Shown here one piece after another: positions 6,429-36,686 of a stretch of DNA of 51,283 nucleotides (position 1 is its first letter; every line of letters begins with the position of its first letter). The notes under the pieces are model-generated. The model was not told the DNA's origin. It ran no database searches and worked only from the letters and a program-made list of their open reading frames with translations. Position numbers and translations under genes: made by a program. The stretch comes from Candidatus Aenigmatarchaeota archaeon (GTDB lineage: Archaea > Aenigmatarchaeota > Aenigmatarchaeia > CG10238-14): positions 1 through 51,283 of the forward strand of contig JAFCCM010000017.1 in the NCBI GenBank assembly GCA_017610225.1, written 5' to 3'.

Positions 6429-7343
6429 ATGCTTATTATTTTATATGGGGATATTTCAAACAAGAAAAACGGAAAGCAGCAAAGAATGATTTCTGGTGAA
6501 GTTACATGTGGTTATCGAGAATATGCGAAAAACTTTGGTTGTATTATTTATATGACTCCACAAGATATAAAACAATCATGGGAACGTGTTATGGTTCAGC
6601 CTAAAAATGTTGTAAAATTTATAAATAAACATCCTGATGCTATAGTATGGTCTGTGAAACATTCTCCAAAAAAAGATGAACAAATTTTATCAAAAATAAA
6701 GAACAAAAAAATATATTATTCATGTAATGCAAAAAATATATGGAATAGTAAATGTAATGTTAGTTTAGTTGATACTCCAAAAAGAGTTAAGAAGAATGGT
6801 AAATTGTGGTTTAAGGGAAAGGAACCACATTATTGGAAGTCTCTTAAAGAACAACAAAAAGAATATGATTATGTATTAGTAGGTTTAAGAGGTGATAAAA
6901 ATGAAACATATTTTATTAAGAGGTTAAATGAAATAAAAGAGAAAAGGAAAATTTTATGGATCGGTGGATATAGATTTAAAAGAAAAATTCCTAAAACTCA
7001 CCATGAAGTTCATTTAACAAAAAAGTTAAGTCAAGATGAAGTTCGGAATCATATTCCTAAAGCCAGAGTTGGTATTCTATTTACGGAGTTGAAAGTAGAA
7101 GGATTTCCACAATCATTTTTAGAGATGACTATGTGTGGTGTCCCTGTGGTTTATAATCAGAAAGCACCTGGCAATAAATTTTATTTTCATAAAGAGAATT
7201 CTTTACTTTGTATTAAAAAAGATATTATAAAGAGTGCTGAAACTTTATTGAAAAATAGAGATCCGATCAAATGTAGAGAAATAGCAATTAAAAATTATAG
7301 TTTAGAAAAATCTTATAAAAGGATATTAGAATGTTTAAAGTAA
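6429..7343 (+). CDS. GT-B glycosyltransferase
   Basis: The 304-residue protein ends with a typical GT4 donor-binding domain: EGFPQSFLEMTMCGVPVVYN (E-x7-E-like spacing), then ENSLLCIKKD. The N-terminal half is variable, with an early GKQQRMISGE loop. It starts one base after the homing endonuclease stop and overlaps the next glycosyltransferase by 13 bases. Role: sugar transfer in the same glycan pathway, substrate unknown. Confidence 0.75.
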   Translation: MLIILYGDISNKKNGKQQRMISGEVTCGYREYAKNFGCIIYMTPQDIKQSWERVMVQPKNVVKFINKHPDAIVWSVKHSPKKDEQILSKIKNKKIYYSCNAKNIWNSKCNVSLVDTPKRVKKNGKLWFKGKEPHYWKSLKEQQKEYDYVLVGLRGDKNETYFIKRLNEIKEKRKILWIGGYRFKRKIPKTHHEVHLTKKLSQDEVRNHIPKARVGILFTELKVEGFPQSFLEMTMCGVPVVYNQKAPGNKFYFHKENSLLCIKKDIIKSAETLLKNRDPIKCREIAIKNYSLEKSYKRILECLK

Positions 7344-8378: not shown

Positions 8379-9014
8379 ATGGCAGATATACTAACAAAAT
8401 TATCGAATAAGCATGGGTGTGATAAATCTGATAAAAACCATAATTATACAAGAAGATATCATACTTATTTTGAAAAAGATAGACATAGTAAATTTACTAT
8501 GCTCGAACTCGGATTCGGTCAAGGAAAATCAGTTAAAATGTGGTTAGAATATTTTACTAAAGCTAATTTAGTATCTGTTGATATAAGGAAGACATTACCA
8601 CAAGATAAATTGATTCAAAATTATGTTAAAGATAATAGATTTGAATTTGTTAGTGCTGATCAAATAGATATGTCTAAAATTTTGAAGATTGTTAATACTT
8701 ATAAAAACTTTTATATTATCATAGATGATGCATCTCATATTGAAGAAGATCAACAATACACATTAGGACATTTATTTCAGTTTGTTATTCCTGGTGGGTG
8801 GTATATAGTAGAAGATTTGAAATGTAAAAGAAGTCATAATGAAAAGTTTGAAGTTAAAGCAGATAAAACATTACAAGTATTAAATAGGTATTTAAAGAGT
8901 AAGAATTTTAATAGTAAAGTTTTAACTTCAGAGCAAAATTTATATTTAAATAACAATATAGAAAGTGTAGCGATATATGATAAAATAGCATTTATAAAAA
9001 AGGGGTTAAATTGA
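8379..9014 (+). CDS. SAM-dependent methyltransferase, demethylmacrocin/MycE-like
   Basis: The start HGCDKSDKNHNYTRRYHTYF matches the N-terminus of the macrocin-type sugar O-methyltransferase family. MLELGFGQGKS (about residues 41-51) is SAM motif I, and IIIDDASHIEEDQ is the conserved DDASH metal and acceptor motif. Characterised members methylate sugar hydroxyls on glycosides. Sitting among glycosyltransferases, it probably O-methylates a sugar of the phage-made glycan. Its stop overlaps the next start (TGATG). Confidence 0.8.
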   Translation: MADILTKLSNKHGCDKSDKNHNYTRRYHTYFEKDRHSKFTMLELGFGQGKSVKMWLEYFTKANLVSVDIRKTLPQDKLIQNYVKDNRFEFVSADQIDMSKILKIVNTYKNFYIIIDDASHIEEDQQYTLGHLFQFVIPGGWYIVEDLKCKRSHNEKFEVKADKTLQVLNRYLKSKNFNSKVLTSEQNLYLNNNIESVAIYDKIAFIKKGLN

Positions 9015-10000
9015 TGAAAATAATGATAACGGGTTCAAATGGTTTTATAGGTCATCATTTTGTAGAGCATTTTCTGAAGAATACAGATTGGGAAATTTAT
9101 GCTGTTGATAAATTAACATATGCTGCTTCTGGTTTTGATAGAGTTAAAGATATAAAAGCATTTGATAATAAAAGAGTGAGGTTTTTTACTTTAGATATAA
9201 CTTTGCCTATTTCAGATGGAATTTATAAAGAGTGTAATGGTGTAGATTATATTTTACATCTTGCTGCTGAAACGCATGTAGATAGATCAATAGAAGACCC
9301 TGAACCATTTGTAATGTCTAATGTAGTGGGAACAATGCATATGTTAAATTTTGCTAGAAAATGTAAAAATTTAAAGGCATTTTGCTATTTTGGAACAGAT
9401 GAAGTTTTTGGTCCAGCTCCACAGGGAATAGCATATAAGGAATGGGATAGATACAATTGTACAAATCCATATTCAGCAACAAAAGCTGGAGCAGAACAAT
9501 TATGTTTATCTTATATGAATACTTATAATTTACCTGGTTTTATTATTCATTGTATGAATGTATTTGGAGAAAGACAACACCCAGAAAAATTCATTCCTAT
9601 TTGTATTAGAAAAATTAGAGATAATGATAAGATAATTATACACGGAACGTCTGATAAAAAACAGGCAGGATCTCGTTTTTATATTCACGCTAGAAATGTA
9701 GCTAATGCAATATATTGGTTATTGGATAAACATAAACAGCGAGATATTTATAATATAGTTGGTGAAAAAGAACTTTCTAATTTAGAAGTTGCTCAACTTA
9801 TATCTAAATATATGAATAAAAGTCTTAAATATGAAATTGTTGATTTTCATTCTAGTCGTCCTGGACATGATTTAAGATATGCTTTAGATGGTGAAAAGTT
9901 AGGAAGTATGGGTTATACAATTCCTATGACTGTTTATGATTCTTTAAGGAGCACTGTTAAGTGGACATTAAGACATGAAAAATGGTTGGGGGTAGTATAA
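9014..10000 (+). CDS. NAD-dependent nucleotide-sugar 4,6-dehydratase/epimerase, RmlB-like
   Basis: This is an extended short-chain dehydrogenase. The Rossmann motif TGSNGFIG is at residues 6-13, LAAETHVDRS at 84-92, TDEVFG at 128-133, and the catalytic Tyr and Lys are in YSATK (Y153, K157). ETHVDRSI and TDEVFG are typical of dTDP-glucose 4,6-dehydratase. It would convert an NDP-hexose to the 4-keto-6-deoxy sugar. The ATG at 9014 overlaps the previous stop and follows AGGGG; a TTG one codon upstream is less likely. No RmlA, C or D partner is in this window. Confidence 0.85.
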   Translation: MKIMITGSNGFIGHHFVEHFLKNTDWEIYAVDKLTYAASGFDRVKDIKAFDNKRVRFFTLDITLPISDGIYKECNGVDYILHLAAETHVDRSIEDPEPFVMSNVVGTMHMLNFARKCKNLKAFCYFGTDEVFGPAPQGIAYKEWDRYNCTNPYSATKAGAEQLCLSYMNTYNLPGFIIHCMNVFGERQHPEKFIPICIRKIRDNDKIIIHGTSDKKQAGSRFYIHARNVANAIYWLLDKHKQRDIYNIVGEKELSNLEVAQLISKYMNKSLKYEIVDFHSSRPGHDLRYALDGEKLGSMGYTIPMTVYDSLRSTVKWTLRHEKWLGVV

Positions 10001-14753: not shown

Positions 14754-15518
14754 ATGAAGGAATTTCAAGAACTATATAAAATAAAAGGATCTGATATAGC
14801 TGTATTTTTGGGGAGCGGTTCATCAATTAATAGAATAACCAATGAACAGTGGGAAAAAATTAGTGAGGTCGATACATGGACAGTTAACAATTGGGTATAT
14901 CATCCCTTCGTACCAAAATTTTATAATCTTGAAGTTAAGGGTATTGATAAAAAGATTATAACAGAAAGATTTTTAGAAAAAGAAGAAGAATATAACAATA
15001 CTCATTTTATTATTGATAAAAGTAAAAAACTTGCGTTGAACAGTATTAGTACACAAAAAAATGTTTATTTATATAATTTAGATATAATGGATGATGTGGA
15101 TACATCTAAACATAATCCTAAAATTAAATATGAGTATAAAGTTAGTAGCGACCCAAACACATTAATTGCACATAATTTATGCTCATCTCTTACATTAATA
15201 TTAGATTTTTTGTGGAGATTTGGATATGAAAAAGTAATTTTCTTTGGTGTAGATATGCATGATTCTAGGTATTTTTGGACCAATCGACCGGAATATGGAA
15301 AAACCCATTGTCAATATAATCACGATCATAAAAAAAATAAAAAAATAGAACAACCTCATACTACTTTTCGCATTAAGGATTTTGTAATATGGTTTTCTGA
15401 AGAATGGATGAGTAAGATTGACTGCAAACTTTTTGTCGGTCATAAAGATACTAAATTATATCCTGATTTAAAATATTTTGATATAGAGAATTTGAAAGGG
15501 GGTAAGTTACATGGATAA
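14754..15518 (+). CDS. DUF115/GT42-like glycosyltransferase
   Basis: AVFLGSGSSINRI at residues 16-28 matches the N-terminal G-x-G-x-S nucleotide loop of GT42/DUF115-type folds. YEKVIFFGVDMHDSRYFW near residue 160 matches the G-[LIV]-D-[FM] motif. The pattern recurs in the next gene and at 20396. GT42 enzymes use CMP-sialic acid, and the CMP-sugar genes start about 1.2 kb downstream, so a CMP-sugar donor is an attractive but unproven inference. Confidence 0.58.
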   Translation: MKEFQELYKIKGSDIAVFLGSGSSINRITNEQWEKISEVDTWTVNNWVYHPFVPKFYNLEVKGIDKKIITERFLEKEEEYNNTHFIIDKSKKLALNSISTQKNVYLYNLDIMDDVDTSKHNPKIKYEYKVSSDPNTLIAHNLCSSLTLILDFLWRFGYEKVIFFGVDMHDSRYFWTNRPEYGKTHCQYNHDHKKNKKIEQPHTTFRIKDFVIWFSEEWMSKIDCKLFVGHKDTKLYPDLKYFDIENLKGGKLHG

Positions 15519-16158
15519 GAGCGAACCTATTGGTATTTTGTTAAAAGGTCCGTCGTTAGAAAAACTTCCAAAAATATACAAAAATTTTAATAATTGTGTT
15601 TTAGTTAATTGGTGGGATAAAGAATTTGAATTATTTGATAATTATATAATTGATAAAAATATTATATTGTACTCTAATGCAGCTAATTTATGGGCAAAGT
15701 ATTCAGAATCTTACACATATACAAATCCAGAGACTTACAAAAGATATAAGGTAGACTCTTTTGGATTTCCTTTTTCTACTACTTATTTTAAAGAAAAACC
15801 GGTAGCAAAGTTTTTAAAGACTATTGAAAAATATGGGGTGACTGATATTCATTCAATACCAAATAAGTATGAAGATGAAACAATGAAAAGACCAAGAAAC
15901 TGTGGAATGAATGCCATACTATATTTTGCTATAGTAATGAAATTTAAAGAAATTTGGATATGTGGTTTAGATTTTTATTCAGGTAAGATCAAGTATGCAA
16001 CTGGTGGGAAAAAAGATAGAGTTATGAAACCTGAGAGAGATAGAATGTTAAGTAGATTTAGCAACTATATGGATAAGTGTAAAGATACTAAATTTAATAT
16101 TGTATCAAATTATGATGATGAATTTTTTACTCAATTCTCAAACGTACATAAATTTTGA
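15511..16158 (+). CDS. GT42-like sialyltransferase-family protein
   Basis: IGILLKGPSLEKLP (residues 7-20) parallels the GNGPSLK loop of Campylobacter Cst-type sialyltransferases. RPRNCGMNAILYFAIVMKF followed by EIWICGLDFYSGKIKYA parallels their TSG-helix and SGIDFY motif. It is the best sialyltransferase-like match of the three related proteins here. GGGGG precedes the ATG, with an 8-base overlap on the previous gene. It would transfer a CMP-activated keto-sugar to a glycan acceptor. The family call is from motif order, not a search. Confidence 0.68.
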   Translation: MDKSEPIGILLKGPSLEKLPKIYKNFNNCVLVNWWDKEFELFDNYIIDKNIILYSNAANLWAKYSESYTYTNPETYKRYKVDSFGFPFSTTYFKEKPVAKFLKTIEKYGVTDIHSIPNKYEDETMKRPRNCGMNAILYFAIVMKFKEIWICGLDFYSGKIKYATGGKKDRVMKPERDRMLSRFSNYMDKCKDTKFNIVSNYDDEFFTQFSNVHKF

Positions 16159-16174
16159 AGGAGGATTAATTTTA

Positions 16175-16729
16175 TTGAAAAATAAAATCAGTTTATTAGC
16201 TAAAAGATATCAGAAATTTATGAGTCTTACTAAGATTAAGAGCAATACAAAAATAATAGATTGTGCGTCTGGTAGAGGATTTGGCAGTAACTTTATTTTA
16301 CAAACGTTTACTCCCAAGAAACTTGTTTGTATTGATATTAGTAGTTCTATGATTGAAGAGTGTAGAATGAGGACTAATGGTAAAGCTGATGAATATATAC
16401 AAACCGACCTGAGAAAATTTGAATGTGATGAACAGTTTGATTATTTTTTTTCTTTAGAAACATTAGAACACTTACCCAAAGAAGATAACATGATAATTTC
16501 AAAGAGAATATCTAATTTAATTAAAGTTGGAGGAAAACTTTTTATATCTGTTCCTGGAAACCCAAAAGATTGTATGAAAAATCCTGATCATTTACAAATG
16601 GTTTCAGAAAAAGTTTTAGTGGATATGTTTGATGTTTTTACTTTAGAAAGTAAAGGTAGATTTATTAAGAGGAAGAAAGAACCAGATTCTTATAATTCAC
16701 TTTATGTATTTATTAAGAAATATAATTAA
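16175..16729 (+). CDS. class I SAM methyltransferase (TTG start)
   Basis: KIIDCASGRGFGSNFI is SAM motif I, LVCIDISSSMIEEC motif II, and FDYFFSLETLEHLP the post-II motif, as in Methyltransf_11/25 proteins. The reading frame extends upstream, but a perfect GAAGGAGG lies ten bases before a TTG at 16175. I chose that as the start; an ATG at 16220 is the alternative. It directly follows the sialyltransferase-like gene and precedes the NeuB-like gene, so it may methylate the keto-sugar or its acceptor. Confidence 0.75.
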   Translation: MKNKISLLAKRYQKFMSLTKIKSNTKIIDCASGRGFGSNFILQTFTPKKLVCIDISSSMIEECRMRTNGKADEYIQTDLRKFECDEQFDYFFSLETLEHLPKEDNMIISKRISNLIKVGGKLFISVPGNPKDCMKNPDHLQMVSEKVLVDMFDVFTLESKGRFIKRKKEPDSYNSLYVFIKKYN

Positions 16730-16745
16730 ATAGAGGGGATATATT

Positions 16746-17570
16746 ATGAATAAAATATTACTAGTGGGAGAGATAGGAATTAATCATAATGGTGATATAA
16801 ATATAGCTAAAAAATTAATTGATGTAGCAGGATTAGCAGGATTAGATTATGTTAAATTTCAAAAGAGATATATTAGTAGTTGTTATACTAAAGATTTTTT
16901 AGATTCTTCAAGAGAAAGTCCTTGGGGAACAACTCAATACGATCAAAAAATGGGCATCGAATTTGAGAAAGAAGAATATACCCTTATTAATAAGTATTCT
17001 AGTGATAAAGGTATTGGTTGGTTTGCTTCTCCTTGGGATATAAAATCAGTAAAGTTTCTATCCAAATTTAAAGTTCCATATATGAAAATAGCAAGTGCTA
17101 GTATTACTAACTTTGAAATTTTAGAAGAAGTTAAGAAAGCAAATATTCCTGTTATAATATCAACTGGCATGTCAACTAAAGAAGAGGTTGATAAGTGTGT
17201 TAATTTTTTTGGTGATCAACTAGAATATATTCTTGCTTGCAAGAGTACATATCCAACATTAGACGAAGATATGAATATGAGATTTATTTCTACTTTAAAA
17301 AGAGAGTACCCAAAACATAAGATTGGAATTTCTAATCATAATGCAGGAATTCAGTTTTGTTTAGGTTCTGTTTTTCTGGGAGTAGAAATGATTGAATTTC
17401 ATATAACCATTGATAGATCTATGTATGGAAGTGATCAGGCAGCATCTATTGAAACTAATGGTATTTTAAAAATTGGAGATCATGTAAGATCATTAGAAAA
17501 AGGTGTTGGAACAGGAGAGTGGACTATAACTCCAGAAGAAAAAAAGATAAGATTAAAGTTGAGAGGGTAA
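16746..17570 (+). CDS. NeuB-like nonulosonic (sialic) acid synthase
   Basis: EIGINHNGD (9-17), YVKFQKR (35-41), FASPWD and MKIASASITN, then EFHITIDRSMYGSDQAAS, follow the NeuB barrel. In that family phosphoenolpyruvate condenses with an N-acylated hexosamine to give a C9 keto-acid. The protein stops after the barrel at 274 residues. The C-terminal SAF/antifreeze domain of usual NeuB (about 340 residues), which helps close the partner active site, is absent. The NeuA-like gene follows at once. Product could be sialic, legionaminic, pseudaminic or another keto-sugar. Confidence 0.82.
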   Translation: MNKILLVGEIGINHNGDINIAKKLIDVAGLAGLDYVKFQKRYISSCYTKDFLDSSRESPWGTTQYDQKMGIEFEKEEYTLINKYSSDKGIGWFASPWDIKSVKFLSKFKVPYMKIASASITNFEILEEVKKANIPVIISTGMSTKEEVDKCVNFFGDQLEYILACKSTYPTLDEDMNMRFISTLKREYPKHKIGISNHNAGIQFCLGSVFLGVEMIEFHITIDRSMYGSDQAASIETNGILKIGDHVRSLEKGVGTGEWTITPEEKKIRLKLRG

Positions 17571-17576
17571 AAGAAT

Positions 17577-18257
17577 ATGAAGGTTGTAGCATTAATCCCT
17601 GCCAGAGGGGGGTCTAAAAGAATACCTTATAAAAATATTGTTAAAATAAATGATAAACCATTAATATGTTATGTTATAGAAGAACTTTTGAAAACTCCAG
17701 AAGTTGATGATATTATAATTTCAACTGATGATAATAAAATATCAAATATTGTAACAAGTCATTATGGGAATAAAATTATTGTTTTAAAAAGACCCTCAGA
17801 ATTGGCTACAGATGAATCTACAACAGAGTCAGTTATTACAGATGTAATTGATAAATTAAAAAATAAGTATACTCATATGATGTTAGTTCAATGTACTTCA
17901 CCATTAACAGAATCTTTAGATTTTTCTGTTTTGATATCTAAAGTTAAATTATTTAATAGTGCAACTTTTTACTATGAAACAGATTCTTTTTTCCTTGATT
18001 TTGAGGATGATTTGATAAATTTAACAACTCCGAGATTACCAAGTCAAAATAAGAAATTGCGAAAATTAGAAGCAGGAAATGCTTGGATATTTGAAATTGA
18101 AGGATTTTTGAAATATGGTTCTAGATTATTTGGAGATATAGGCATATGTAAAATAGATTCTCCAAAGGAACTAGAAATAGATGATCCTGAAAATTTAGTA
18201 TTAGTTGAGTGTTTATTAGAAAGGAGAAAAAATGAACAGAAAAGTTTTTTGGAATGA
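17577..18257 (+). CDS. CMP-nonulosonate cytidylyltransferase, NeuA-like
   Basis: ALIPARGGSKRIPYKNI at residues 4-20 is the canonical CTP-binding signature of CMP-sialate synthetases. IIISTDD, LKRPSELATDES, MLVQCTSPLTE and IDDPENLVLVE follow in family order. It would activate the keto-acid made by the gene upstream as a CMP-sugar in the cytoplasm. A second divergent homologue lies at 22017-22691. Overlap with the next gene is 26 bases, so the two are co-translated. Confidence 0.87.
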   Translation: MKVVALIPARGGSKRIPYKNIVKINDKPLICYVIEELLKTPEVDDIIISTDDNKISNIVTSHYGNKIIVLKRPSELATDESTTESVITDVIDKLKNKYTHMMLVQCTSPLTESLDFSVLISKVKLFNSATFYYETDSFFLDFEDDLINLTTPRLPSQNKKLRKLEAGNAWIFEIEGFLKYGSRLFGDIGICKIDSPKELEIDDPENLVLVECLLERRKNEQKSFLE

Positions 18258-19206
18258 TAAGTTTATTGATGAGAAAGATGCCAAAATTTCAATATATGAT
18301 TCATCAATGATGTTTGGAGATGTAGTATTTGAAATGACACGTTCTTTTAATAAAAAGCAATTTAAACTTAAAGAACATATAGATCGTTTATATGAATCAG
18401 CAAAGTGTATTTATATAGATATTCCTTTAAGTAAGTCAGAGATGATTGATGCTGTTTATAAAACTATAGAAAAGAATGAACCTGTATTTGAAAAAGATGA
18501 TGAACATAGAGTAATGATTAATGTAACCAGAGGATTATTATCTATATATCAAAATATTGTAGGAATACCCAATGGACCAAATGTTATAATAGCTGATTTT
18601 CCTTTAAGATGGACAACCAATGGAATGGGTAAACTTTTTGATGATGGGGTAAATGCTATGGTTCCATCTCAACGAGCTATTCCTGCTAGATTATTAGACC
18701 CAAAAATTAAAAATAGAAATAGAATACATTATTTAATGGCTAATATCGAAGCTTCTAAACGAAAAGGAAAAAATATTTGGCCAATTTTATTTGATGAAAA
18801 TGGTTATGCAACTGAAGGTCCTGGTGATAATTTTTTTATAGTTAAAGATGGGATAGTTATATCTCCAGAGGGAAGAAATATTCTTAGAGGTATTAGTCGT
18901 CAGTTTATATTTGATTTATGTAAAGAAAATAAAATAATATATAAAGAAAAAAATATAGAATTATATGATATAATTACCGCAGATGAAGCATTCTTTTCAG
19001 CCACACCATTTTGTATGCTACCATGTGTGTCTATAAATGAAATTTTAATAAGTGATGGTAAACCAGGTCCTATATATAACTTACTGCTTAAATTATGGAG
19101 TAAATATGTTGGAGTAATTATAAAAAAGCAAATTCAAGAGTGGGATGAAAGTAATAATAAACTAAGAGGAACATCCCCTTATCAATTTGGAGAGAGTGAT
19201 GAGTAA
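18232..19206 (+). CDS. class IV PLP aminotransferase (BCAT/D-amino-acid-type)
   Basis: Fold-type IV PLP enzyme: SMMFGDVVFEMTRSF near residue 25 (cofactor and substrate loop), DPKIKNRNRIHYLMA at 156-170 containing the likely Schiff-base Lys (K160), and ATEGPGDNFFIV at 193-204 with the conserved Glu. Length (324) fits the family. It lies between CMP-sugar and radical SAM genes. It could supply an amino group or a D-amino acid to decorate the sugar. GAAAGGAG precedes the ATG. Exact amino donor unknown. Confidence 0.85.
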   Translation: MNRKVFWNDKFIDEKDAKISIYDSSMMFGDVVFEMTRSFNKKQFKLKEHIDRLYESAKCIYIDIPLSKSEMIDAVYKTIEKNEPVFEKDDEHRVMINVTRGLLSIYQNIVGIPNGPNVIIADFPLRWTTNGMGKLFDDGVNAMVPSQRAIPARLLDPKIKNRNRIHYLMANIEASKRKGKNIWPILFDENGYATEGPGDNFFIVKDGIVISPEGRNILRGISRQFIFDLCKENKIIYKEKNIELYDIITADEAFFSATPFCMLPCVSINEILISDGKPGPIYNLLLKLWSKYVGVIIKKQIQEWDESNNKLRGTSPYQFGESDE

Positions 19207-19999
19207 ACAATTTTATGGTCTTACAACAGTAAATATAGAGTTAAGTTCAAGATGTAATAAAAATTGCTGGATGTGTGGAAGGAGGAAAATTGATAAAAAT
19301 TATCCGGAAGTTGCTATGAACTATGGAGACATGGAAATGTACTTGGTTAAAAAAATTGCTGAACAACTTCCATCAAAAATAATTTGTCAATTTCATTCAA
19401 ATGGGGAAAGTTTACTACATCCAAATTTTGGTGATGCAGTGAGTTTGTTTAATAGACAAATTAAGTGTATGAATACAAATGGAAAATTAATAATTGAGAA
19501 GCATGATGAAATTATTGATAATTTAGATACTATTACAATTTCAGTTATTGAAAAAGATTCTGAGGGTGATGAACAATTTGAGTTAGTTAAAGAGTTTTTA
19601 GATATTAAAAAAAATAGAAAACCATTTATGATTTATCGTCTTTTGGGAAATATAGAAAATAGACATAAGTGGGAAAGTTTGCCTGGTATTATTGTAGATA
19701 GAATATTACATAGCCCAATGGGAAGTTTTAAATATACAAAGAAAGTAACTAAACCTGAAATTGGAATATGTCTTGACCTTCTTAATCATTTGGTAATTAA
19801 TAGATTTGGGGACGTAAGTATATGTGTTCGTTTTGATGTAAATAAGTTGGGTGTAATTGGAAATATAAATTCTGATAAATTAATAGATATTTGGAATGGA
19901 AATTTAAGATCAGAGTGGATACAGTATCATATTGAAGGAAAAAGACAAAAGGCTCCTCTTTGTAAAACATGCGAATTTTGGGGAATACCTAGAGGATAA
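19199..19999 (+). CDS. radical SAM/SPASM-like protein
   Basis: SSRCNKNCWMCGRR gives the CX3CX2C [4Fe-4S] motif (C19, C23, C26). The C-terminal part has GICLDLLNHLVINRFGDVSIC and then CKTCEFWG, fitting a reduced SPASM-type auxiliary cluster. Such proteins carry out radical dehydrogenation, epimerisation or carbon rearrangement; the substrate is not readable. GGAGA precedes the ATG at 19199; a TTG four codons earlier is less likely. It overlaps the aminotransferase by 8 bases, implying a shared pathway. Confidence 0.82.
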   Translation: MSKQFYGLTTVNIELSSRCNKNCWMCGRRKIDKNYPEVAMNYGDMEMYLVKKIAEQLPSKIICQFHSNGESLLHPNFGDAVSLFNRQIKCMNTNGKLIIEKHDEIIDNLDTITISVIEKDSEGDEQFELVKEFLDIKKNRKPFMIYRLLGNIENRHKWESLPGIIVDRILHSPMGSFKYTKKVTKPEIGICLDLLNHLVINRFGDVSICVRFDVNKLGVIGNINSDKLIDIWNGNLRSEWIQYHIEGKRQKAPLCKTCEFWGIPRG

Positions 20000-20001
20000 A
20001 T

Positions 20002-20409
20002 ATGAAATATCGCCAATTAGTTAAAACTGTTGATACAAGTGATTATCATGAGGGGATTATATCGCTAGGTCAAGTTAAAGCACAATATAATCCCGAGAGA
20101 TTTCATTTGTGGAAATCATTACATAAAGAAAACAGAAAAGATAAGTCTTATCGTCAATTACAAAGATTATATGGAAGGAATAATAGATGGATTGATGATA
20201 AAATTAAGAAGTTTCTTGATGTTTTTGAAAGTATAAAAAATGAGGGATTTAAAGAAAGTATAATGATAGTTGAAAGATCATTAGTAACAAATAAATACAA
20301 TGATGGTTTTGAGATATTTGAAGGTCATCATAGAGTTGGTTGTGCATTAGTTTTAAATATGAAAGAAATTCCTTGTCAAATAATAAGGAGAAAAAATGAA
20401 AACGATTGA
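20002..20409 (+). CDS. ParB/sulfiredoxin-like fold protein
   Basis: FEIFEGHHRVGCALVLNMKE near residue 105 is the GHHR signature of the ParB/Srx superfamily, followed by IPCQII. There is no helix-turn-helix, so it is not a partition ParB. At 135 residues it is essentially the domain alone. Members of this fold can be kinases, nucleases or CTP-binding switches, and some sit in polysaccharide islands as modifying enzymes. CTP binding would be notable beside two CTP-using NeuA-like genes. Function not assigned. Confidence 0.65.
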   Translation: MKYRQLVKTVDTSDYHEGIISLGQVKAQYNPERFHLWKSLHKENRKDKSYRQLQRLYGRNNRWIDDKIKKFLDVFESIKNEGFKESIMIVERSLVTNKYNDGFEIFEGHHRVGCALVLNMKEIPCQIIRRKNEND

Positions 20410-21061
20410 AAGTTTGATTGATAAATGTAAAGGAAGGCGAGCTGTTATTATTTGTACTGGTTCGTCTATAAAAGAATATGAAAGTAAGATAGATACTTTT
20501 ATTTTTGAAGAAAAAGCATTTACAATTGGAATAAATAATATAACAAAATTCTTTATGCCTGATTATCATTTATGGACAAATACTAAAAGATTCAGAACTT
20601 TTGGTAAAAATATTTATCCTGAATCTGAACTTTTATTGGGAGCTGGCATTCATTTAAAAACTATAATAGAAGTGCTTGGTCCTGTGGGATATACTTTAAT
20701 AAATTTTACAGATATGAAAGAGGGCGTTCCGATTGGATATAGCAAAGGAAAAATTTTAGGATTTTTTAGAACAGCTGGATGTCTTGCTATTATGATTGCT
20801 CATTTAATGGGAGCCAAAGATGTTTCAATTGTTGGTATGGATGGTCATACATTTTATAATTATGAAGATATAAAATCTGGAGAAAAATCACACCATTGTT
20901 ACGAAGAAGACTATAAACCATTTACAAAAGAAATATGTATTAAAAAAGATCAAGTTGTTACAGGAGTTTTGAGCAGTTTAAAAAATTATGGGATAGATTT
21001 GAAAATATTAACTCCAACAATTTATGAAGAATTTTATGGAGGTGCTAAATGGTTGTATTAG
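20396..21061 (+). CDS. DUF115/GT42-like glycosyltransferase
   Basis: AVIICTGSSIKEYESKI near residues 16-32 and TAGCLAIMIAHLMGAKDVSIVGMDGHTF near 130-157 repeat the two motifs of the proteins at 14754 and 15511: an N-terminal glycine-serine loop and an Asp after a hydrophobic strand. AAGGAG lies just inside the end of the previous gene. Placed within the CMP-sugar cassette, it is a plausible transferase for the product, though it is more divergent from known sialyltransferases than the protein at 15511. Confidence 0.58.
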   Translation: MKTIESLIDKCKGRRAVIICTGSSIKEYESKIDTFIFEEKAFTIGINNITKFFMPDYHLWTNTKRFRTFGKNIYPESELLLGAGIHLKTIIEVLGPVGYTLINFTDMKEGVPIGYSKGKILGFFRTAGCLAIMIAHLMGAKDVSIVGMDGHTFYNYEDIKSGEKSHHCYEEDYKPFTKEICIKKDQVVTGVLSSLKNYGIDLKILTPTIYEEFYGGAKWLY

Positions 21062-22020
21062 ACTGCACATTCCGTGATGGGGGTTATAATAATAATTGGG
21101 ATTTTGATATATCCTTAGCGAATATTTATCTTGAAACAATGGAACAGGCAAAGGTTGATGCAGTTGAAATAGGATTTAGATCTTCACCAAAAAAAGATGT
21201 GGGTAGATTTGCAAAAGTTACAGACTATTTTATTGAAGATAATTTACATATTCCAAAAATTGAATATTTTGGGGTTATGATAAACTCCGGTGAATATGAT
21301 TATCATTTAGTAAAGAAATTATTTTGTTATGCAGATGAATCGCCAATTAATTTGGTTAGATCAGCTACTCATTTTCATAAACTTGATGAAGCAGAAATTG
21401 TTTTAAAGCAGTTAAAATCAATGGGATATACTGTTACACTGAATCTAATGCAAGCTGCTGATAAGAGTTATGACGAAATTAGAGATGCCGCCAAAAAAAT
21501 AAGTGAATGGAAATGTGTTGATATTTTATATTTGGCAGATTCTTTTGGTGGAATGAATCATGATACTGTTAATTATGCATTTAAAGCATTAAGAGAAGGA
21601 TGGAATGGTTTGTTTGGATTTCATGGACATAATAATAAAGGACAGGCATTAAATAATACACTTGAAGCTATTGATATAGGAGTTGAATGGGTAGATTCAA
21701 CAATCCTTGGTATGGGTAGAGGCCCTGGTAATACAGAAACAGAATACTTACTTAATGAATTAAATAAGAGAAATTTTGAATTTGAACTTGAAAGTGTCTA
21801 TGAGTTAGCAATGGGTGATTTTCATTTGCTAAAAGAAAAATATAATTGGGGTCCATCATTGCCGTATTATTTATCGGCGGAATACAATATTCATCCTACA
21901 TATGTACAAGAACTTTTAAATAATTATTCTAAAGATATAGTTTTAAAAGCCATTAATTATTTAAAGGATAAAAAATGTAAGTCGTTTGATAAACAATTAT
22001 TGAGGAGATCTATTCAATGA
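21049..22020 (+). CDS. DRE-TIM metallolyase (HMGL-like aldolase)
   Basis: LDCTFRDGGYNNNWDF at residues 4-19 is the DRE-TIM entry motif with catalytic Arg and metal Asp. FGFHGHNNKGQALNN near residue 195 supplies the HxH metal ligands, and GMGRGPGNTETEYL is the glycine loop. It resembles 4-hydroxy-2-oxovalerate aldolase-type proteins found in polysaccharide clusters. It would make or cleave a keto-acid C-C bond with pyruvate or acetyl-CoA. It lies between a GT42-like and a CMP-sugar gene, so it may build the carbon skeleton or a side chain of the sugar. Confidence 0.83.
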   Translation: MVVLDCTFRDGGYNNNWDFDISLANIYLETMEQAKVDAVEIGFRSSPKKDVGRFAKVTDYFIEDNLHIPKIEYFGVMINSGEYDYHLVKKLFCYADESPINLVRSATHFHKLDEAEIVLKQLKSMGYTVTLNLMQAADKSYDEIRDAAKKISEWKCVDILYLADSFGGMNHDTVNYAFKALREGWNGLFGFHGHNNKGQALNNTLEAIDIGVEWVDSTILGMGRGPGNTETEYLLNELNKRNFEFELESVYELAMGDFHLLKEKYNWGPSLPYYLSAEYNIHPTYVQELLNNYSKDIVLKAINYLKDKKCKSFDKQLLRRSIQ

Positions 22021-22691
22021 ACATTTGTTTTATACCAGCAAGAAGTACATCAACTAGATTTAAAAATAAGAACATTTCATCATTTGCAAATGGAAATCTT
22101 ATTACACATACTATTAAGCAAGCGTTAAATTGTAATATTTTTGATAGAATAATTTTATCTTCTAATGATAAAAGCATTTTAGATATGGCAAATAATTACG
22201 ACATTGAAACTCATTTAAGAGATGATAAATTTGATCAAATTATTGGAGTCATTCAAAATGCAATACCTGTTTTGAATATAAAAGATGAAGATACATTTGG
22301 ATTATTACTAGTTACATGTCCTTTAAGAATAGTTGATGATATAGTGAAAGCTTATGATTTATTTATTGAAAATGATAAACATCATCCTGTTATAAGTGTT
22401 AAGCAAAATGAAAATCCAATTCAAATGGCATTTAAAATAGATTTTTGTGGACATTTAGAACCTGTTATGCCAGATGACTTTTATAGAAGCACAAGGAAAC
22501 AAGATCATTATGATACATTTTTTTATAATGATGCAATCATATTTGATACAGCAAAAAAATTTATGATGAATGGAAGAACTTTATATGGAGATAATCCAAT
22601 ACCATATTTGATGCCTTGGGAAAGATCAATATCAATTGATTATGAATTTCAATTAAAAATGGCTGATTGCTTATATGAAAAGGAAAAATGA
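22017..22691 (+). CDS. second CMP-sugar cytidylyltransferase, NeuA-like (divergent)
   Basis: It keeps the family order, CFIPARSTSTRFKNKNI, IILSSND, LLLVTCPLR and FYNDAIIFD, but the CTP loop reads ARSTSTRF rather than ARGGSKRI. CTP binding may therefore differ, or another sugar may be used. It overlaps the aldolase by 4 bases. Together with the homologue at 17577 the phage carries two CMP-sugar synthetases, implying two different activated sugars. Confidence 0.8.
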   Translation: MNICFIPARSTSTRFKNKNISSFANGNLITHTIKQALNCNIFDRIILSSNDKSILDMANNYDIETHLRDDKFDQIIGVIQNAIPVLNIKDEDTFGLLLVTCPLRIVDDIVKAYDLFIENDKHHPVISVKQNENPIQMAFKIDFCGHLEPVMPDDFYRSTRKQDHYDTFFYNDAIIFDTAKKFMMNGRTLYGDNPIPYLMPWERSISIDYEFQLKMADCLYEKEK

Positions 22692-22692
22692 T

Positions 22693-23598
22693 ATGCAAAA
22701 ATTTATAGGAATTATAGTAGCTTTAATTACACCATTTAAAGAAGATGGGTCCGTGTATATAGATGGCATAAAAAATGAAATAGAGTATTTAGCTAGTTAT
22801 GGTTATAAAAATTTATTTATTTGTGGATCATATGGTTCTTTTCCGATAATGACAACTGAAGAAAGAAAACTCGTTTCTAAGCATGCAGTTTTATTTGGCA
22901 AACAATGTGGAATGAAAAGCATTGTTCATATTGGGTCTCCTTCAACTAAGATTGCTATGGACTTATCTAAGTATGCAGAAGATATAGGCGCTGATGCAAT
23001 TTCCGCAGTTGTGCCATTTTATTATTCCCGAACAATTTATAATGATAAAACATATTTAAAATATTTTGAACGAATTATTAATAATGTTTCAATTGATGTT
23101 CATTGTTATAATAATCCGAATACAACTGGTTTTAATGTTAGTGTTGAACTTTTAAAACAACTCATGAATATTGGTTTGAAAGGAATAAAAGATGGAGGTA
23201 ATGATTTAGAACGAACTATAAATATATTAAATTTTATTGATGATGATTTTGATTATTATCCATCATCTACATCTGCTATGGTATCTAATTTTATATTTGG
23301 AGTTAAATCATGTATTTCTGGAGTTGCGTTAACAATGCCTGGCGAGATTATGCAGTTATATAATAAGCTAAATAATACAATGCTTAACTCTTTGGATATT
23401 ACTAATTCATTCAAATTGATTATGAAAGTTAGAAGTATATTAGGACAAAGATGTGGAAGAGCTATTTCTGCATATGATATTCTAAATTATAAAGGGATTG
23501 ATGTTGGAATATGTAGAGAACCATGGTTAAGTTTAAATAAAGAAGATTCATTATGGTTGATAAATGAATTAAAAGCATTAGGAGTAATAAATGATTGA
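22693..23598 (+). CDS. DapA/NanA-family class I aldolase
   Basis: This is a DHDPS/NAL-type TIM barrel. GIIVALITPFKEDGSV is at 6-21, FICGSYGSFPIMTTEER at 42-57, the catalytic Tyr is in HCYNNPNTTG (Y139), and the Schiff-base Lys is in KGIKDGGND (K166). These enzymes add pyruvate to an aldehyde, or split keto-acids such as sialic acid. Next to two CMP-sugar genes it most likely handles a keto-sugar rather than lysine synthesis. The ATG at 22693 has AAAAGGAA; an in-frame ATG six codons upstream would extend the overlap. Confidence 0.84.
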   Translation: MQKFIGIIVALITPFKEDGSVYIDGIKNEIEYLASYGYKNLFICGSYGSFPIMTTEERKLVSKHAVLFGKQCGMKSIVHIGSPSTKIAMDLSKYAEDIGADAISAVVPFYYSRTIYNDKTYLKYFERIINNVSIDVHCYNNPNTTGFNVSVELLKQLMNIGLKGIKDGGNDLERTINILNFIDDDFDYYPSSTSAMVSNFIFGVKSCISGVALTMPGEIMQLYNKLNNTMLNSLDITNSFKLIMKVRSILGQRCGRAISAYDILNYKGIDVGICREPWLSLNKEDSLWLINELKALGVIND

Positions 23599-23974
23599 TT
23601 TCATAGACACATTAAATGAACAAACAAGCAACACTATTGGGGTAGATTTTGATGGAGTTATACATAAAAATTCAAAAGGATTTTATGATGGTACTATTTA
23701 TGATGAACCTGTGGATGGAACCAAAGAAGCATTAGAGATATTATCAAAAAAGTTTAATTTGGTTATATATACATGTAAAGGTAATATTAATAGACCATTG
23801 ATAAATGGAAAAACTGGCATTCAATTAATTTGGCAATGGTTAAAAAAATATAATTTTGATATATATATTTCTGAAGTTACAGATAAAAAACCAAGAGCTT
23901 TGTTTTATATTGATGATAAAGCAATTACATTTACAACATGGAAAGATGTATTAGATACAATAGAAATGATTTAA
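23591..23974 (+). CDS. HAD-superfamily phosphatase-like protein
   Basis: IGVDFDGVIH at about 17-26 is HAD motif I (D-x-D), VIYTCKGN motif II, and KPRALFYIDDKAITF the C-terminal K...DD motifs. The 127-residue protein is a capless HAD core, larger than the one at 78-359. It is the last gene of the + strand run before a hairpin terminator. Dephosphorylation of a keto-sugar 9-phosphate, or a similar intermediate, is a plausible but unproven role. Confidence 0.75.
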   Translation: MIDFIDTLNEQTSNTIGVDFDGVIHKNSKGFYDGTIYDEPVDGTKEALEILSKKFNLVIYTCKGNINRPLINGKTGIQLIWQWLKKYNFDIYISEVTDKKPRALFYIDDKAITFTTWKDVLDTIEMI

Positions 23975-25105: not shown

Positions 25106-26125
25106 ATGCGAAGATTTTATATGTTTCGTTCGAATATTAGAAACCTTGAATATTATCATAAGTATAAAGATTTAAAAACATTCAAAGAAAAATGCCATGA
25201 TTATTATATGTTATTTCCATTGTGGCTTCTTGAAAAGGATTTTTTTGATGAAATTATAATATGGAGACTTACTAACAAATCCATTAAAGATATAGTATTT
25301 GATATAAATGGAAAGAAATATATTCAGAAATGGGTAACAAATTTTAAAGAAACATTTAAGGATCCGTCACCAGATATTTCTTTTTTTAGAGGCGGGTTCC
25401 CTGAGTATGACGAAGTAACAAGGAGAAAACCAAAACATTTTGGGAAAAAAATATACTTGGGTGCTGGTAGAAGAATCTTCCCTCAATGGCAAGGAAAATA
25501 TGATGCTTATCTAATTGAGGATGAAAGAGATTTTGTCAAGAATGCCGATTGTTTTCCATTCTATAAAACTGCATCTCCAGAAGTTTTTCATGCCATCGAA
25601 GATACACAAATAAAGTGGGATATATGTTGGCCATGTAATTTTACTCAGATCAGATATAAAGGGCAGAAGTTTTTTATTTCATTAATAGCACAAAATCCTA
25701 TATTACAAAAATTAAAAATTGTACATTGTGGCAATAAACCAGAAGTGGGAAAACAATTATGTAAAAGATTTGATGTTCATAATATTAAGTTTTTGGGACA
25801 TATTGAAAGACCTGAGTTGAATAAAATTTTAAATATGAGTCGATTCGGTTTGAATTTAAGTAATTTAACTGATGGATGTCCGAGAATTTCAACTGAAATA
25901 TTAATGTCTGGAACACCATTGATGCTTAGAGATACTGTGAGATTATTACAATATTTTAGAAAAAAAGGAGTTGTTAATATAGATAAAAATAATATTGTAA
26001 ATAAGATCTCTTGGGCAATTAACAATTATTCTATACTGAAAGATGAATTAATAAATACAATTAAAAATGAATTATCTTTTGATAATATTAACCAAAAAAA
26101 TATTGACCTTTGGAAAAAAATATGA
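25106..26125 (+). CDS. GT-B glycosyltransferase-like protein
   Basis: The C-terminal half has VHCGNKPEVG, IKFLGHIERPELNKILNMSRFGLNLS and then GCPRISTEILMSGTPLMLRD, the layout of GT4-type donor domains. The N-terminal 130 residues do not resemble the other transferases here. It lies outside the main glycan run, after the primase-like gene, and its stop codon falls inside a terminator hairpin. Substrate unknown. Confidence 0.68.
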   Translation: MRRFYMFRSNIRNLEYYHKYKDLKTFKEKCHDYYMLFPLWLLEKDFFDEIIIWRLTNKSIKDIVFDINGKKYIQKWVTNFKETFKDPSPDISFFRGGFPEYDEVTRRKPKHFGKKIYLGAGRRIFPQWQGKYDAYLIEDERDFVKNADCFPFYKTASPEVFHAIEDTQIKWDICWPCNFTQIRYKGQKFFISLIAQNPILQKLKIVHCGNKPEVGKQLCKRFDVHNIKFLGHIERPELNKILNMSRFGLNLSNLTDGCPRISTEILMSGTPLMLRDTVRLLQYFRKKGVVNIDKNNIVNKISWAINNYSILKDELINTIKNELSFDNINQKNIDLWKKI

Positions 26126-27172: not shown

Positions 27173-27754
27173 ATGGACGAATATGATATTGTAATGTTGT
27201 ATAGTGGCGGTGCTGATAGTCGATTAATGATTGAAATGGCACTAAGAGCAGGGAAGAACCCTTATTGTATTTTGATTGATTATGGTCAAAAACATATTGA
27301 AGAATTAGATTTTGCAATTGTACAACTTAAGGCACTTGATGTTAAGAATCAAATTATTAAAGTTAGTGGGTTGAATATACAAAGTGGTTTGACTGGAGAT
27401 TTAATTGAAGGAAGATGGGAGACTGTCAATGAAATGAATGTTCCTGGACGAAATACAATTTTTATTGCTTTAGCTATCAGTGTTGCAGAGAATAAGGGAA
27501 TAAACGAAGTATGGTATGGAGCTGATTACTCAGATAGAATAAATTTATTTCCAGATTGTTATCAGGAATATGTTGTAAAGATGAATGAATTGTTAGCAAT
27601 ATGTGGAGTTCAACCAATTAAGCTTGTTGCTCCATTATTGGGAATGACCAAAGAATTAATTTATGAAATTTTGGGTCAATATGGTATTGAAGAAGATGAT
27701 ATGTATAGTGGTTATGAAGAACCAAAAATACAAAGTACGGAGGTAGGTTGTTAA
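27173..27754 (+). CDS. queC: QueC-like 7-cyano-7-deazaguanine synthase, lacking the zinc tail
   Basis: PP-loop ATPase: LYSGGADSR (residues 9-17), IDYGQKH, VPGRNTIFIALAIS and GADYSD follow QueC order. QueC turns carboxy-deazaguanine into preQ0 using ATP and ammonia. The usual C-terminal zinc site (C-x-C-G-x-C-x2-C) is missing; the protein ends QSTEVGC, one cysteine from the stop. No QueD, QueE, FolE or DNA transglycosylase is seen in the window. It could act on scavenged precursor for base modification, or on another substrate. Confidence 0.75.
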   Translation: MDEYDIVMLYSGGADSRLMIEMALRAGKNPYCILIDYGQKHIEELDFAIVQLKALDVKNQIIKVSGLNIQSGLTGDLIEGRWETVNEMNVPGRNTIFIALAISVAENKGINEVWYGADYSDRINLFPDCYQEYVVKMNELLAICGVQPIKLVAPLLGMTKELIYEILGQYGIEEDDMYSGYEEPKIQSTEVGC

Positions 27755-28649: not shown

Positions 28650-29320
28650 ATGTTATGTGATTATGGTTGTGGACAAAAAGCAAATTATGAACTTCAAAAT
28701 GGCAAAAAATGTTGTTGTAAAAGTCATAATTCTTGTCCAAAAGTATGTGAAAAAAGAAGTAATTCTTTAAAAGGGACTAGGTTAGGTAAAGATAATCCAT
28801 TTTATGGAAAAACACATTCTAAACGGGGAAAAGAAATCTTAAGAAATAATATGTTAGGTTCTAATAATCCATGTTATAAAAAAAGATATAGCAAAGAAGA
28901 ACGAAATGAAATGAGTAGAATTGTAAAAAAAGCATGGGTAGATAATAGTGAGTTAAAAGATAAAGCAAGAAAACGAGGTTTAGATAATTTTAAAAATGAA
29001 GAATATTTACGAAAATTCATTAAAGGATGTAGTAGCAAACCCAATAATCATGAAAAATTTTTAATTAAACATTTCAAAAATTTGGGCTTAAATTTTAAAT
29101 ATGTTGGAAATTATAAAAAATGGATTGGAGGAAAAACCCAGATTTTATTATGGGCAATTTGATTATTGAATATTTTGGAAAATATTGGCATGAGAAGGCT
29201 GATGTTGAAATAAGAACAAATCATTTTAAAATGTATGGTTATGAAACGCTAGTAATATGGGAAGATGAACTGAAAGATTTATGTAAACTAAAATCAAAAC
29301 TATTTCAGTTTGTTATTTAG
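28650..29320 (+). pseudogene. homing endonuclease, Cys-module/Vsr-like, split by a frameshift
   Basis: The first frame gives the shared module (LCDYGCGQKANYEL..KKCCCK), a basic linker and a start of the nuclease fold (FKYVGNYKKWIGGK), then runs off at 29162. One frame back, the protein continues as PDFIMGNLIIEYFG, KYWHEKAD and LVIWEDEL, completing a Vsr-like core. One extra A in the AAAAA run near 29132 would join them. It may be a real mutation, a sequencing error in a homopolymer, or a -1 ribosomal frameshift. Confidence 0.75.
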
Positions 29321-31420: not shown

Positions 31421-31432
31421 AGAGGAATGAAA

Positions 31433-32308
31433 ATGAAAGTATGTAGTTATGGTTGTGGTCAAGAAGCTAAATATTATCTAAGATTTAAACATACAACCAA
31501 TAAATGGTGTTGTAGCAAAAACTACAATGCCTGTCCAGTGAAACGAATACATTCAGGTAAGTCACAGAAAGGCAAAGAATGTTCAGAACAACGTAAACAA
31601 AAAATAAGTAAAGCACAAAAAGGCAGAACATGGGAAGAAATTCATGGCAAGGAAAAAAGCAAAATATTAAAGTATAAAAAAAGCATGGAAAGAAAAGGAA
31701 AAAGCTACGAAGAACTTTATGGCAAAGAAAAAGCTAAAGCACTTAGAGAAGAGAGAAAAATAAGAATTTCTAAAATACATAAAAAATATCCATTCTTTTC
31801 AAAGATAGAAGAGATGAGGTATAATCCATGTAAACCAAACGAAAAAGAAATTCAAGTTCATTGTAAAAATCATGAATGTAATAATTCAAAAGAAAAAGGT
31901 GGATGGTTTACATCGACATTGATACAAATACAAGAAAGAATAAGACAACTTGAAGATGGAAATGGAGGATGCTATTTATATTGTTCACAAAAATGTAAAG
32001 ATGAATGTATATTATATAATGTTCATTCAGATCCATATAAAGAAAAAACTGAAAAAACATATACACAAGAAGAATATCAAACATTCAGAGAATATGTTTT
32101 AGAGCGTGATAATAATACATGCCAATATTGTGGTAAAATAGCAGATCATGTTCACCACGAACGACCACAAAAACTTGAACCATTTTTTGCATTAGATCCA
32201 GACCTAGCATGGTCTGTGTGTAAAAAATGTCACTACGAAAAAGGACATAAAGATGAGTGTAATACTTGGAATCTAGCAAATAAAATATGTAATCAGGAGG
32301 GGATTTAA
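31433..32308 (+). CDS. HNH homing endonuclease, paralogue of the gene at 2268
   Basis: The N-terminal Cys module is slightly altered (VCSYGCGQEAKYYL ... KWCCSK). A basic linker with KGRTWEEIHGKEK and GKSYEELYGKEK repeats replaces most NUMOD3 units. The middle block (EIQVHCKN-EC) and the C-terminal HNH (CQYCGKIADHVHHERP ... CKKCHYEKGHK) are very like the gene at 2268. AGAGG sits seven bases before the ATG at 31433; an ATG two codons earlier is possible. Confidence 0.87.
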   Translation: MKVCSYGCGQEAKYYLRFKHTTNKWCCSKNYNACPVKRIHSGKSQKGKECSEQRKQKISKAQKGRTWEEIHGKEKSKILKYKKSMERKGKSYEELYGKEKAKALREERKIRISKIHKKYPFFSKIEEMRYNPCKPNEKEIQVHCKNHECNNSKEKGGWFTSTLIQIQERIRQLEDGNGGCYLYCSQKCKDECILYNVHSDPYKEKTEKTYTQEEYQTFREYVLERDNNTCQYCGKIADHVHHERPQKLEPFFALDPDLAWSVCKKCHYEKGHKDECNTWNLANKICNQEGI

Positions 32309-34315: not shown

Positions 34316-34393
34316 TGGTTCCCCCAGTAGGATTTGAACCTACGTTCCATGGTTAAAAGCCATGTACTCTAAACCAAACTGAGTTATGGGGGA
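34316..34393 (-). tRNA. tRNA-Lys (anticodon TTT), CCA encoded
   Basis: The cloverleaf is complete: acceptor TCCCCCA pairs with TGGGGGA, the anticodon loop is CTTTTAA with anticodon TTT, and the T-loop is TTCAAAT. Discriminator A is followed by an encoded CCA. AAA is a very frequent codon in this AT-rich DNA. Confidence 0.92.
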
Positions 34394-34405
34394 ATATTCC
34401 TTATT

Positions 34406-35053: not shown

Positions 35054-35066
35054 GTTTATTCTCCTT

Positions 35067-35627: not shown

Positions 35628-35734
35628 ATTTTTCCCTTTCCCAGTTGACAGTTTTTACAACCAGAATCACAAATATAATTTGGATCTTGTGAATTTACAC
35701 ATGTGAAGTTATCTATTGTATCCTTTCTTTTAAT
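35624..35734 (-). CDS. possible 30-40-residue Cys-rich peptide, start codon unclear
   Basis: An open frame ends in a TGA overlapping the ATG of the lipoprotein gene (ATGA), a classic coupling arrangement. It encodes four Cys in C-x9-C-x3-C-x2-C spacing (CVNSQDPN, CDSGCKNC). AAAGAAAGG precedes it, but no ATG, GTG or TTG is in frame. Removing one A from the A run near 35740 would join it to an upstream ATG. It may be a frameshifted or ATA/ATT-started gene, or a chance ORF. Confidence 0.3.
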   Translation of the reverse strand: MKRKDTIDNFTCVNSQDPNYICDSGCKNCQLGKGKI

Positions 35735-35754
35735 TTTTTACTAACATAAAGACT

Positions 35755-36135: not shown

Positions 36136-36145
36136 ATTAATTCCT

Positions 36146-36574: not shown

Positions 36575-36597
36575 TTTTATTCCTTTCGAGAGTTAAA

Positions 36598-36672: not shown

Positions 36673-36686
36673 GATTTGTATATTAG

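Follow-up and report, generated by a model that had tools for sequence, protein, structure and literature searches.

The 51,283-nucleotide stretch of contig JAFCCM010000017.1 (assembly GCA_017610225.1, Candidatus Aenigmatarchaeota archaeon; hereafter the window) contains a run of genes that combines NeuB- and NeuA-type enzymes of nonulosonic acid synthesis with an aminotransferase, a radical S-adenosylmethionine (SAM) protein and two aldolases. We found that this cassette consists of two cytidine monophosphate (CMP)-ulosonate-type modules lying side by side in a single viral run; both have relatives in cells. Module A (16746-19999) holds NeuB, the CMP-ulosonate synthetase NeuA1, a class IV aminotransferase (AT4) and the radical SAM protein (rSAM); module B (20002-23974) holds a ParB/Srx-like protein, DUF115c, an HMGL-type aldolase, the second synthetase NeuA2, a DapA-like aldolase and a small haloacid dehalogenase (HAD)-like protein. 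We hold with high confidence that the two are independent, with the boundary between 19999 and 20002. A preliminary description, made from the sequence alone, had named most of the families of this run; profile searches with Pfam and NCBIfam recovered every family it named, all on the plus strand, and added a methyltransferase, the ParB/Srx-like (20002) and HAD-like (23591) proteins and three DUF115-type proteins. The assignment of genes to families and modules is firm.

Two viral loci carry the modules separately. In L036, the NeuB, NeuA, AT4 and rSAM genes stand in the order of the window (identities 47, 34, 55 and 56%). In L039, the ParB-like, DUF115c, HMGL, NeuA2, DapA and HAD genes do so (41, 59, 61, 64, 55 and 60%), with one HNH-like open reading frame (ORF; 6926-7276) between DUF115c and HMGL, and NeuB was not found in the 19.8-kb L039 stretch examined. 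Because each module was found without the other (A in L036 and in cellular loci, B in L039), we read the run as two modules and hence probably two products, and the earlier proposal of a single pathway with a single product did not hold. One continuous pathway, with all enzymes acting in sequence on a single elaborate nonulosonate, would agree with the common strand, the overlapping genes and the single larger gap only after the HAD gene, but it is very unlikely given that A recurs alone in L036 and many cellular loci, that B occurs in L039 away from NeuB, and that two CMP synthetases would be redundant in it. The two synthetases are indeed as unlike as first described, sharing 32% identity across 59 residues only. 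Each junction from the methyltransferase ORF through the HAD gene is either an overlap of 4-26 bases or a gap of 2-16 bases; a 411-base gap lies 3' of the HAD gene. One transcript for the run, which had been suggested from start/stop overlaps, is plausible: the overlaps and short gaps support it, but promoter-like and terminator-like patterns in the run showed no excess over shuffled sequences.

The viral loci compared were fetched with NeuB (27), rSAM (2 more), AT4 (9 more) and the DapA-like protein (1 more), 39 in total; apparent near-duplicates among the viral loci are L032/L033, L037/L038 and L088/L089, and the NeuB match of L028 covers 187 residues only. In these 39 loci, NeuB was present in 9/9 that bear rSAM, 10/11 that bear AT4 and 8/8 that bear DUF115a (6/6, 8/9 and 5/5, respectively, leaving out the NeuB-fetched loci). 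A profile of 15 rSAM sequences gave 48 cellular loci, spread over many phyla of bacteria and archaea, and their flanks (up to 8 kb) held NeuB in 45/48, NeuA in 42/48 and AT4 in 12/48. In all three loci without NeuB, the rSAM gene lies near a contig end. This linkage bears on a Kdn-like interpretation of module A, in which NeuB would act on mannose-6-phosphate or another sugar phosphate, followed by a phosphatase and NeuA, while AT4 and rSAM would modify another molecule. Mannose-6-phosphate is the starting point of Kdn synthesis, and Kdn-9-P synthetase takes phosphoenolpyruvate (PEP) and mannose-6-phosphate (PMC6200933, in the part of the text available); in addition, a small HAD cluster was found in 21/39 viral loci. 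Nevertheless, the presence of NeuB beside rSAM in 45 of the 48 cellular loci argues that rSAM belongs to the pathway, and the small HAD cluster occurred in 0/48 of these loci, so we consider the Kdn-like interpretation unlikely.

Clustering of the ORFs showed a NeuB-NeuA-rSAM core joined by one of three partners: a class III aminotransferase with a vicinal oxygen chelate (VOC)/glyoxalase-like protein, a class IV aminotransferase, or a short-chain dehydrogenase/reductase (SDR). Within 5 kb, the 42 cellular loci with a clustered NeuB ORF held class III in 20, class IV in 9, SDR in 8 and none in 5, and no two of them coincided. The probability of such disjointness by chance, relatedness being ignored, was 0.001 for class III and IV, 0.003 for class III and SDR and 0.12 for class IV and SDR, and all three were disjoint in 0 of 20,000 random draws. 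This pattern would suit three partners that substitute for one another at a single step. Two observations weigh against this: SDR coincides with an aminotransferase in 8/35 viral loci with a clustered NeuB, and both aminotransferase classes occur in L046, which lies outside the 42 cellular loci. The SDR of L084 was nearest to gluconate 5-dehydrogenase, with KduD-type models lower and all below cut-off. On this 179-kb contig, assigned to a metagenome-assembled genome (MAG) of Candidatus Borrarchaeum weybense, the gene order around DUF115a, glycosyltransferases, NeuA, SDR, rSAM and NeuB is close to that of L003 and L029, both viral contigs, so viral DNA may have been assigned to the archaeal MAG by the binning. 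Of the cellular loci (L040-L087), 23/48 hold a cluster of cobalamin-binding radical SAM proteins (median 476 amino acids), against 0/39 viral loci.

A full SPASM domain carries two auxiliary clusters, and the butirosin pathway, to which BtrN belongs, includes aminotransferases. BtrN was the best solved relative of the 15-sequence rSAM profile (E 2.7e-14), ahead of NifB, and the alignment spans the radical SAM motif and the C-terminal region, with three of the four C-terminal cysteines inside the aligned stretch. The cysteines invariant in the 15 sequences are C19/C23/C26 (CxxxCxxC) and, in the C-terminal part, only C191/C209/C255/C258, a pattern that fits four C-terminal cysteines binding one auxiliary cluster, as in BtrN, better than it fits a full SPASM domain. 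In Pfam, the protein matched SPASM (3e-10) and Radical_SAM (7e-5; 23.4 bits, below the 29.5 cut-off); its start was taken as the ATG at 19199, although the ORF reaches a TTG at 19187. BtrN has an auxiliary cluster with four cysteine ligands and performs a two-electron alcohol oxidation (PMC9012708, available part). The rSAM of module A would thus share with it a radical SAM site and one four-cysteine cluster, whereas the BtrN substrate is an aminocyclitol and rSAM is partnered with NeuB and NeuA. Dehydrogenation by rSAM, followed by amination (with class III or IV) or by reduction (with SDR), would explain the alternative partners. On a Desulfobacterales contig (L085, 8001-8803), the rSAM gene is split between two ORFs, either because the gene is disrupted or because of an error in the sequence.

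From these comparisons we infer the substrates, order of steps, amination, products and acceptor of both modules. In module A, NeuB would condense PEP with an aldose to a 3-deoxy-2-ulosonic acid, the BtrN-like rSAM would turn one hydroxyl into a ketone, and AT4 would aminate this ketone; NeuA1 would then form the CMP sugar, and DUF115a or DUF115b (Maf/GT42-like) would transfer it. The product may be a modified, perhaps amino, CMP-ulosonate. Oxidation followed by amination is put forward tentatively. Alternatively, AT4 and rSAM could supply an amino acid or amide with which a conventional sugar is decorated, such as a D-amino acid used in N-acylation. The solved relatives of AT4 are branched-chain (5mqz, 5cm0, 5e25) and D-amino-acid enzymes, and the NCBIfam names point the same way below cut-off; K160, among the invariant columns of 14 sequences, is presumably the pyridoxal phosphate lysine. 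But class IV is swapped for class III with VOC or for SDR beside NeuB-NeuA-rSAM, which a sugar step fits better, and no amide-forming family was found among the 29 distinct window proteins covered by the Pfam scan, so that decoration by an amino acid appears improbable.

The catalytic domain of NeuB is covered at profile positions 1-239/241 of PF03102. NeuB had been correctly recognised as domain-truncated: the C-terminal SAF/antifreeze domain is missing, the TIGR03569 match spans 2-273/329 and no second Pfam domain was found. This is no oddity: short forms, judged by length only, are usual in the group (33/36 viral ORFs of 270-286 and 32/44 cellular ORFs of 278-300 amino acids) and a 290-amino-acid relative is present in the PDB (6ncs). 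Scores fell under the NCBIfam equivalog cut-offs (NeuB_NnaB 212 vs 399.65 bits; PseI 154 vs 340.25 bits). The synthesis of N-acetylneuraminic, legionaminic and pseudaminic acids (NeuB, NeuA/PseF) resembles the cassette in its PEP-type synthase and CMP synthetase families; the cassette differs in having a radical SAM protein and a class IV aminotransferase, a NeuB without SAF, and scores below equivalog cut-offs. To our knowledge, the Kdn pathway, which is similar in its synthase, phosphatase and CMP synthetase, includes no radical SAM or aminotransferase step. The 29 scanned window proteins gave no match to NeuC, PseB or LegB, and no paper joining nonulosonic acid with radical SAM was found in the open-licence literature searched, which agrees with the earlier view of an unusual CMP-activated keto-acid sugar system. 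A PseB/LegB identity for the gene at 9011-10000 was examined and discarded, its nearest model being dTDP-glucose 4,6-dehydratase (269 bits, cut-off 365; LegB 115, PseB 43). The missing NeuC/PseB, on which the claim of novelty had partly rested, is no proof of it, since the Kdn route begins from mannose-6-phosphate plus PEP (PMC6200933, same part). A chemical parallel would be Kdo8N of Shewanella, where the first step is carried out by KdnB, an iron alcohol dehydrogenase acting as Kdo 8-oxidase (PMC5125639, available part). Module A would likewise oxidise an ulosonate hydroxyl first, but with a radical SAM enzyme as the oxidant. In the Kdo8N pathway, KdnA aminates after the KdnB oxidation.

Module B was traced in viruses and cells. 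HMGL and NeuA2 as viral queries gave no matches, but L039, where both genes are present, also escaped these scans, so they say little. A search with HMGL at 1e-40 in 148 genomes of one cellular phylum was likewise empty and carries no weight. The DUF115c query led to the viral loci L088, L090 and L089, the last of which seems to duplicate L088. In L088 and L090, DUF115c is followed by an HpcH/HpaI aldolase, a D-2-hydroxyacid dehydrogenase, a KdsB-like cytidylyltransferase and a homolog of the glycosyltransferase that starts at 25106 in the window, which recurs beside module B (55% identity in L039, 28% in L088 and L090). HpcH/HpaI enzymes have pyruvate-type aldolase chemistry; the slot after DUF115c thus again holds a pyruvate-type aldolase and a CMP-ulosonate-type synthetase, of other families. 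The ParB/Srx-like protein accompanies DUF115c in viral loci; NCBIfam gave it a weak match to SerK (L-serine kinase, E 0.004).

Of the 120 HMGL relatives listed (3749 matches in all), 17 were 521-548 amino acids long, and in three long relatives inspected (P0102, P0112, P0120) HMGL is followed by a DUF115-like domain. Cellular HMGL-DUF115c (HMGL-Maf) fusions of about 540-600 amino acids contain both domains and often lie beside an HpaI/GarL-type aldolase, an LdpA-like Fe-S protein, a HAD phosphatase and a KdsB-like synthetase. A CTP transferase was present within 5 kb in 12/15 fused loci vs 0/23 unfused HMGL loci (Fisher 1.7e-7), or in 9/12 fused loci without L101, L102 and L138, which supplied the CTP profile, and an HpaI gene in 10/15 vs 0/23; the unfused set is a contrast with another subfamily and no matched control (20/23 from one phylum; 20/23 hand-picked for contig room and 3 from another search), and L166, 1 of the 39 HMGL loci of this comparison, was left out because it had no HMGL call. 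In six fused loci of a second phylum (L160-L165), outside profile building, CTP transferase was found in 6/6 and HpaI in 5/6; a narrower look of about 1.5 kb in the first five fused loci showed CTP transferase in 0/5 and an HpaI-type gene in 3/5. Alignment of DUF115c with the fusion C-termini by hhalign is partly circular, since the fusions of L102 and L103 are included in the DUF115c profile. The unfused HMGL genes of cells, at about 31% identity, were examined as possible module B homologs but set aside as a separate subfamily, none of the 23 having a CTP transferase gene at a distance of up to 5 kb. A set of HpaI-type aldolase, HMGL-Maf fusion, LdpA-like Fe-S protein, HAD phosphatase and KdsB-like protein, for which no name was found, recurs in L101, L135, L138 and L160-L164.

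The families and motifs of the module B aldolases are those of the DmpG/HMGL, DapA/NanA/2-keto-3-deoxygluconate (KDG) and HpaI/GarL pyruvate aldolases, but they stand out by their linkage with CMP-sugar-synthetase-type genes and with Maf-like proteins. The HMGL protein contains DCTxRDGG and HGHNN and the DapA-like protein Y145 and K172, which we take to be the catalytic motifs, with K172 as the Schiff-base lysine. The latter protein scored best with the NCBIfam model Arch_KDGaldase, and its best three models were all under equivalog cut-offs (127 vs 390, 116 vs 206 and 104 vs 281 bits). A catabolic module, with aldolases cleaving an ulosonate that the phage takes from its host, would suit relatives such as N-acetylneuraminate lyase and KDG aldolase, which are usually catabolic enzymes. 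The NeuA2 gene, however, overlaps both aldolase genes, and the CTP transferase near 12 of the 15 HMGL-Maf fusions likewise points to synthesis, so we give catabolism little credence. In a biosynthetic module B, the HMGL-type pyruvate aldolase would form a different, perhaps shorter, 3-deoxy-ulosonic acid, the DapA-like aldolase would serve a second or preceding step, the HAD protein may strip a phosphate, NeuA2 would form the CMP sugar and DUF115c would transfer it; we see about an even chance that module B makes its ulosonate by aldolase. The L039 copy of the HAD protein matched Hydrolase_6 at 0.004, below cut-off, and the window copy had no Pfam match at E <= 1.

The DUF115-type proteins are candidate transferases that may use the CMP-sugar donors. 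They share no significant mutual identity, and DUF115b (18.2 bits) and DUF115c (15.1 bits) missed the PF01973 cut-off of 34.6 bits. A Maf glycosyltransferase ranked first for the predicted structures of both DUF115a and DUF115c, a fold like that of Maf flagellin glycosyltransferases and the GT42 enzymes Cst-I and Cst-II; in contrast to these, the match is limited to the central Maf domain, at 10-18% identity and below the PF01973 cut-off. However, the same models match the pterin enzyme HPPK as well. The domain called Maf_flag10 (pfam01973) is similar to Cst-II, and Maf enzymes are transferases of nonulosonic acids (PMC11339370, available part). A DUF115b homolog (27%) lies between NeuA and SDR in L001.

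Table 1 Genes of the cassette and its flanks in the window.
Feature	Position	Strand	Evidence and remarks
DUF115a, Maf/GT42-fold, candidate transferase of module A	14754..15518	+	
DUF115b, weakly MptE/Maf_flag10-like, candidate transferase	15511..16158	+	PF01973 E 0.0022
SAM methyltransferase	16100..16729	+	Methyltransf_25 8e-12; just upstream of NeuB
NeuB-type PEP ulosonate synthase, 274 amino acids, no SAF domain	16746..17570	+	PF03102 5e-60; PDB 6ncs 1e-35
NeuA1, CMP-ulosonate synthetase	17577..18257	+	PF02348 2e-23; PDB 9ftb NeuA 3e-15
AT4, class IV aminotransferase	18232..19206	+	PF01063 4e-42; K160 invariant
rSAM, BtrN-like, one four-Cys C-terminal site	19199..19999	+	BtrN 4m7t E 2.7e-14
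ParB/Srx-like protein	20002..20409	+	phrog_4715 5e-7; homologs in L039, L088, L090
DUF115c, module B, Maf/GT42-fold, candidate CMP-ulosonate transferase	20396..21061	+	
HMGL/DmpG-type (DRE-TIM) pyruvate aldolase	21049..22020	+	PF00682 4e-23; PDB 3dxi 9e-46; L039 homolog 61%
NeuA2, second CMP-ulosonate synthetase	22017..22691	+	PF02348 5e-16; PDB 1eyr CMP-Neu5Ac synthetase 5e-14; L039 64%
DapA/KDG-aldolase/NAL-type Schiff-base aldolase	22675..23598	+	PF00701 5e-41; L039 55%
Small HAD-like protein, candidate sugar-acid phosphatase	23591..23974	+	L039 homolog 60%
Glycosyltransferase group 1-like	25106..26125	+	PF00534 7e-5, below cut-off

The products of the modules are likely to be CMP-ulosonates, and on balance we lean towards a phage glycan cassette of two such modules, each with its own transferase. 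More speculatively, the wider picture could be one of an aldolase route (pyruvate condensation by DmpG-, DapA- or HpaI-type enzymes, activation by a NeuA/KdsB-type synthetase and transfer by a Maf-like domain, which in some cases is joined to the aldolase) and a radical-SAM amination of NeuB products without a UDP-N-acetylglucosamine (UDP-GlcNAc) precursor, both captured by phages. If so, uncultured microbes and phages would have two routes to sialic-acid-like sugars that bypass the known precursor enzymes, and the pairing of rSAM with NeuB and of HMGL with Maf would be accounted for. Both routes bear only generic names in the family libraries used. Among the titles and abstract beginnings listed in the searches of open-licence literature, none dealt with module A or B, and the available part of one phage paper (PMC6292376) held nothing bearing on them. 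The cassette is a defined set of small genes suited to laboratory expression.

The window looks like virus-like DNA. It has eight tRNA genes and a relative, L039, in a viral collection, and its PHROG matches include QueC, dCMP deaminase, tRNA nucleotidyltransferase and dATP/dGTP pyrophosphohydrolase. No structural family was matched among the 20 window proteins run against PHROGs, 8/10 proteins in one of the sets run had no PHROG family, and blastn against INPHARED gave a single weak match over 4% of the query. The label "phage-type" given earlier was half right: viral relatives exist, but module A has wide cellular counterparts and module B a related cellular set, in which the fused protein occurs and the synthetases and aldolases belong to different families. 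The QueC-like gene lies at 27173-27754 and the tRNA genes at 34316-51203, amid nucleotide-metabolism genes, a pattern of large phages. The block upstream of the cassette contains several glycosyltransferase-like and methyltransferase-like genes. The methyltransferase ORF next to NeuB starts with TTG at 16100, its true start being uncertain, and was searched from 16157, a non-start codon; several NeuB loci also hold methyltransferases, but of other clusters. ORFs resembling HNH/NUMOD homing endonucleases, recognised by eye from repeated motifs, were observed at 2247-3155, 5687-6427, 28650-29162, 31427-32308 and 42676-43326.

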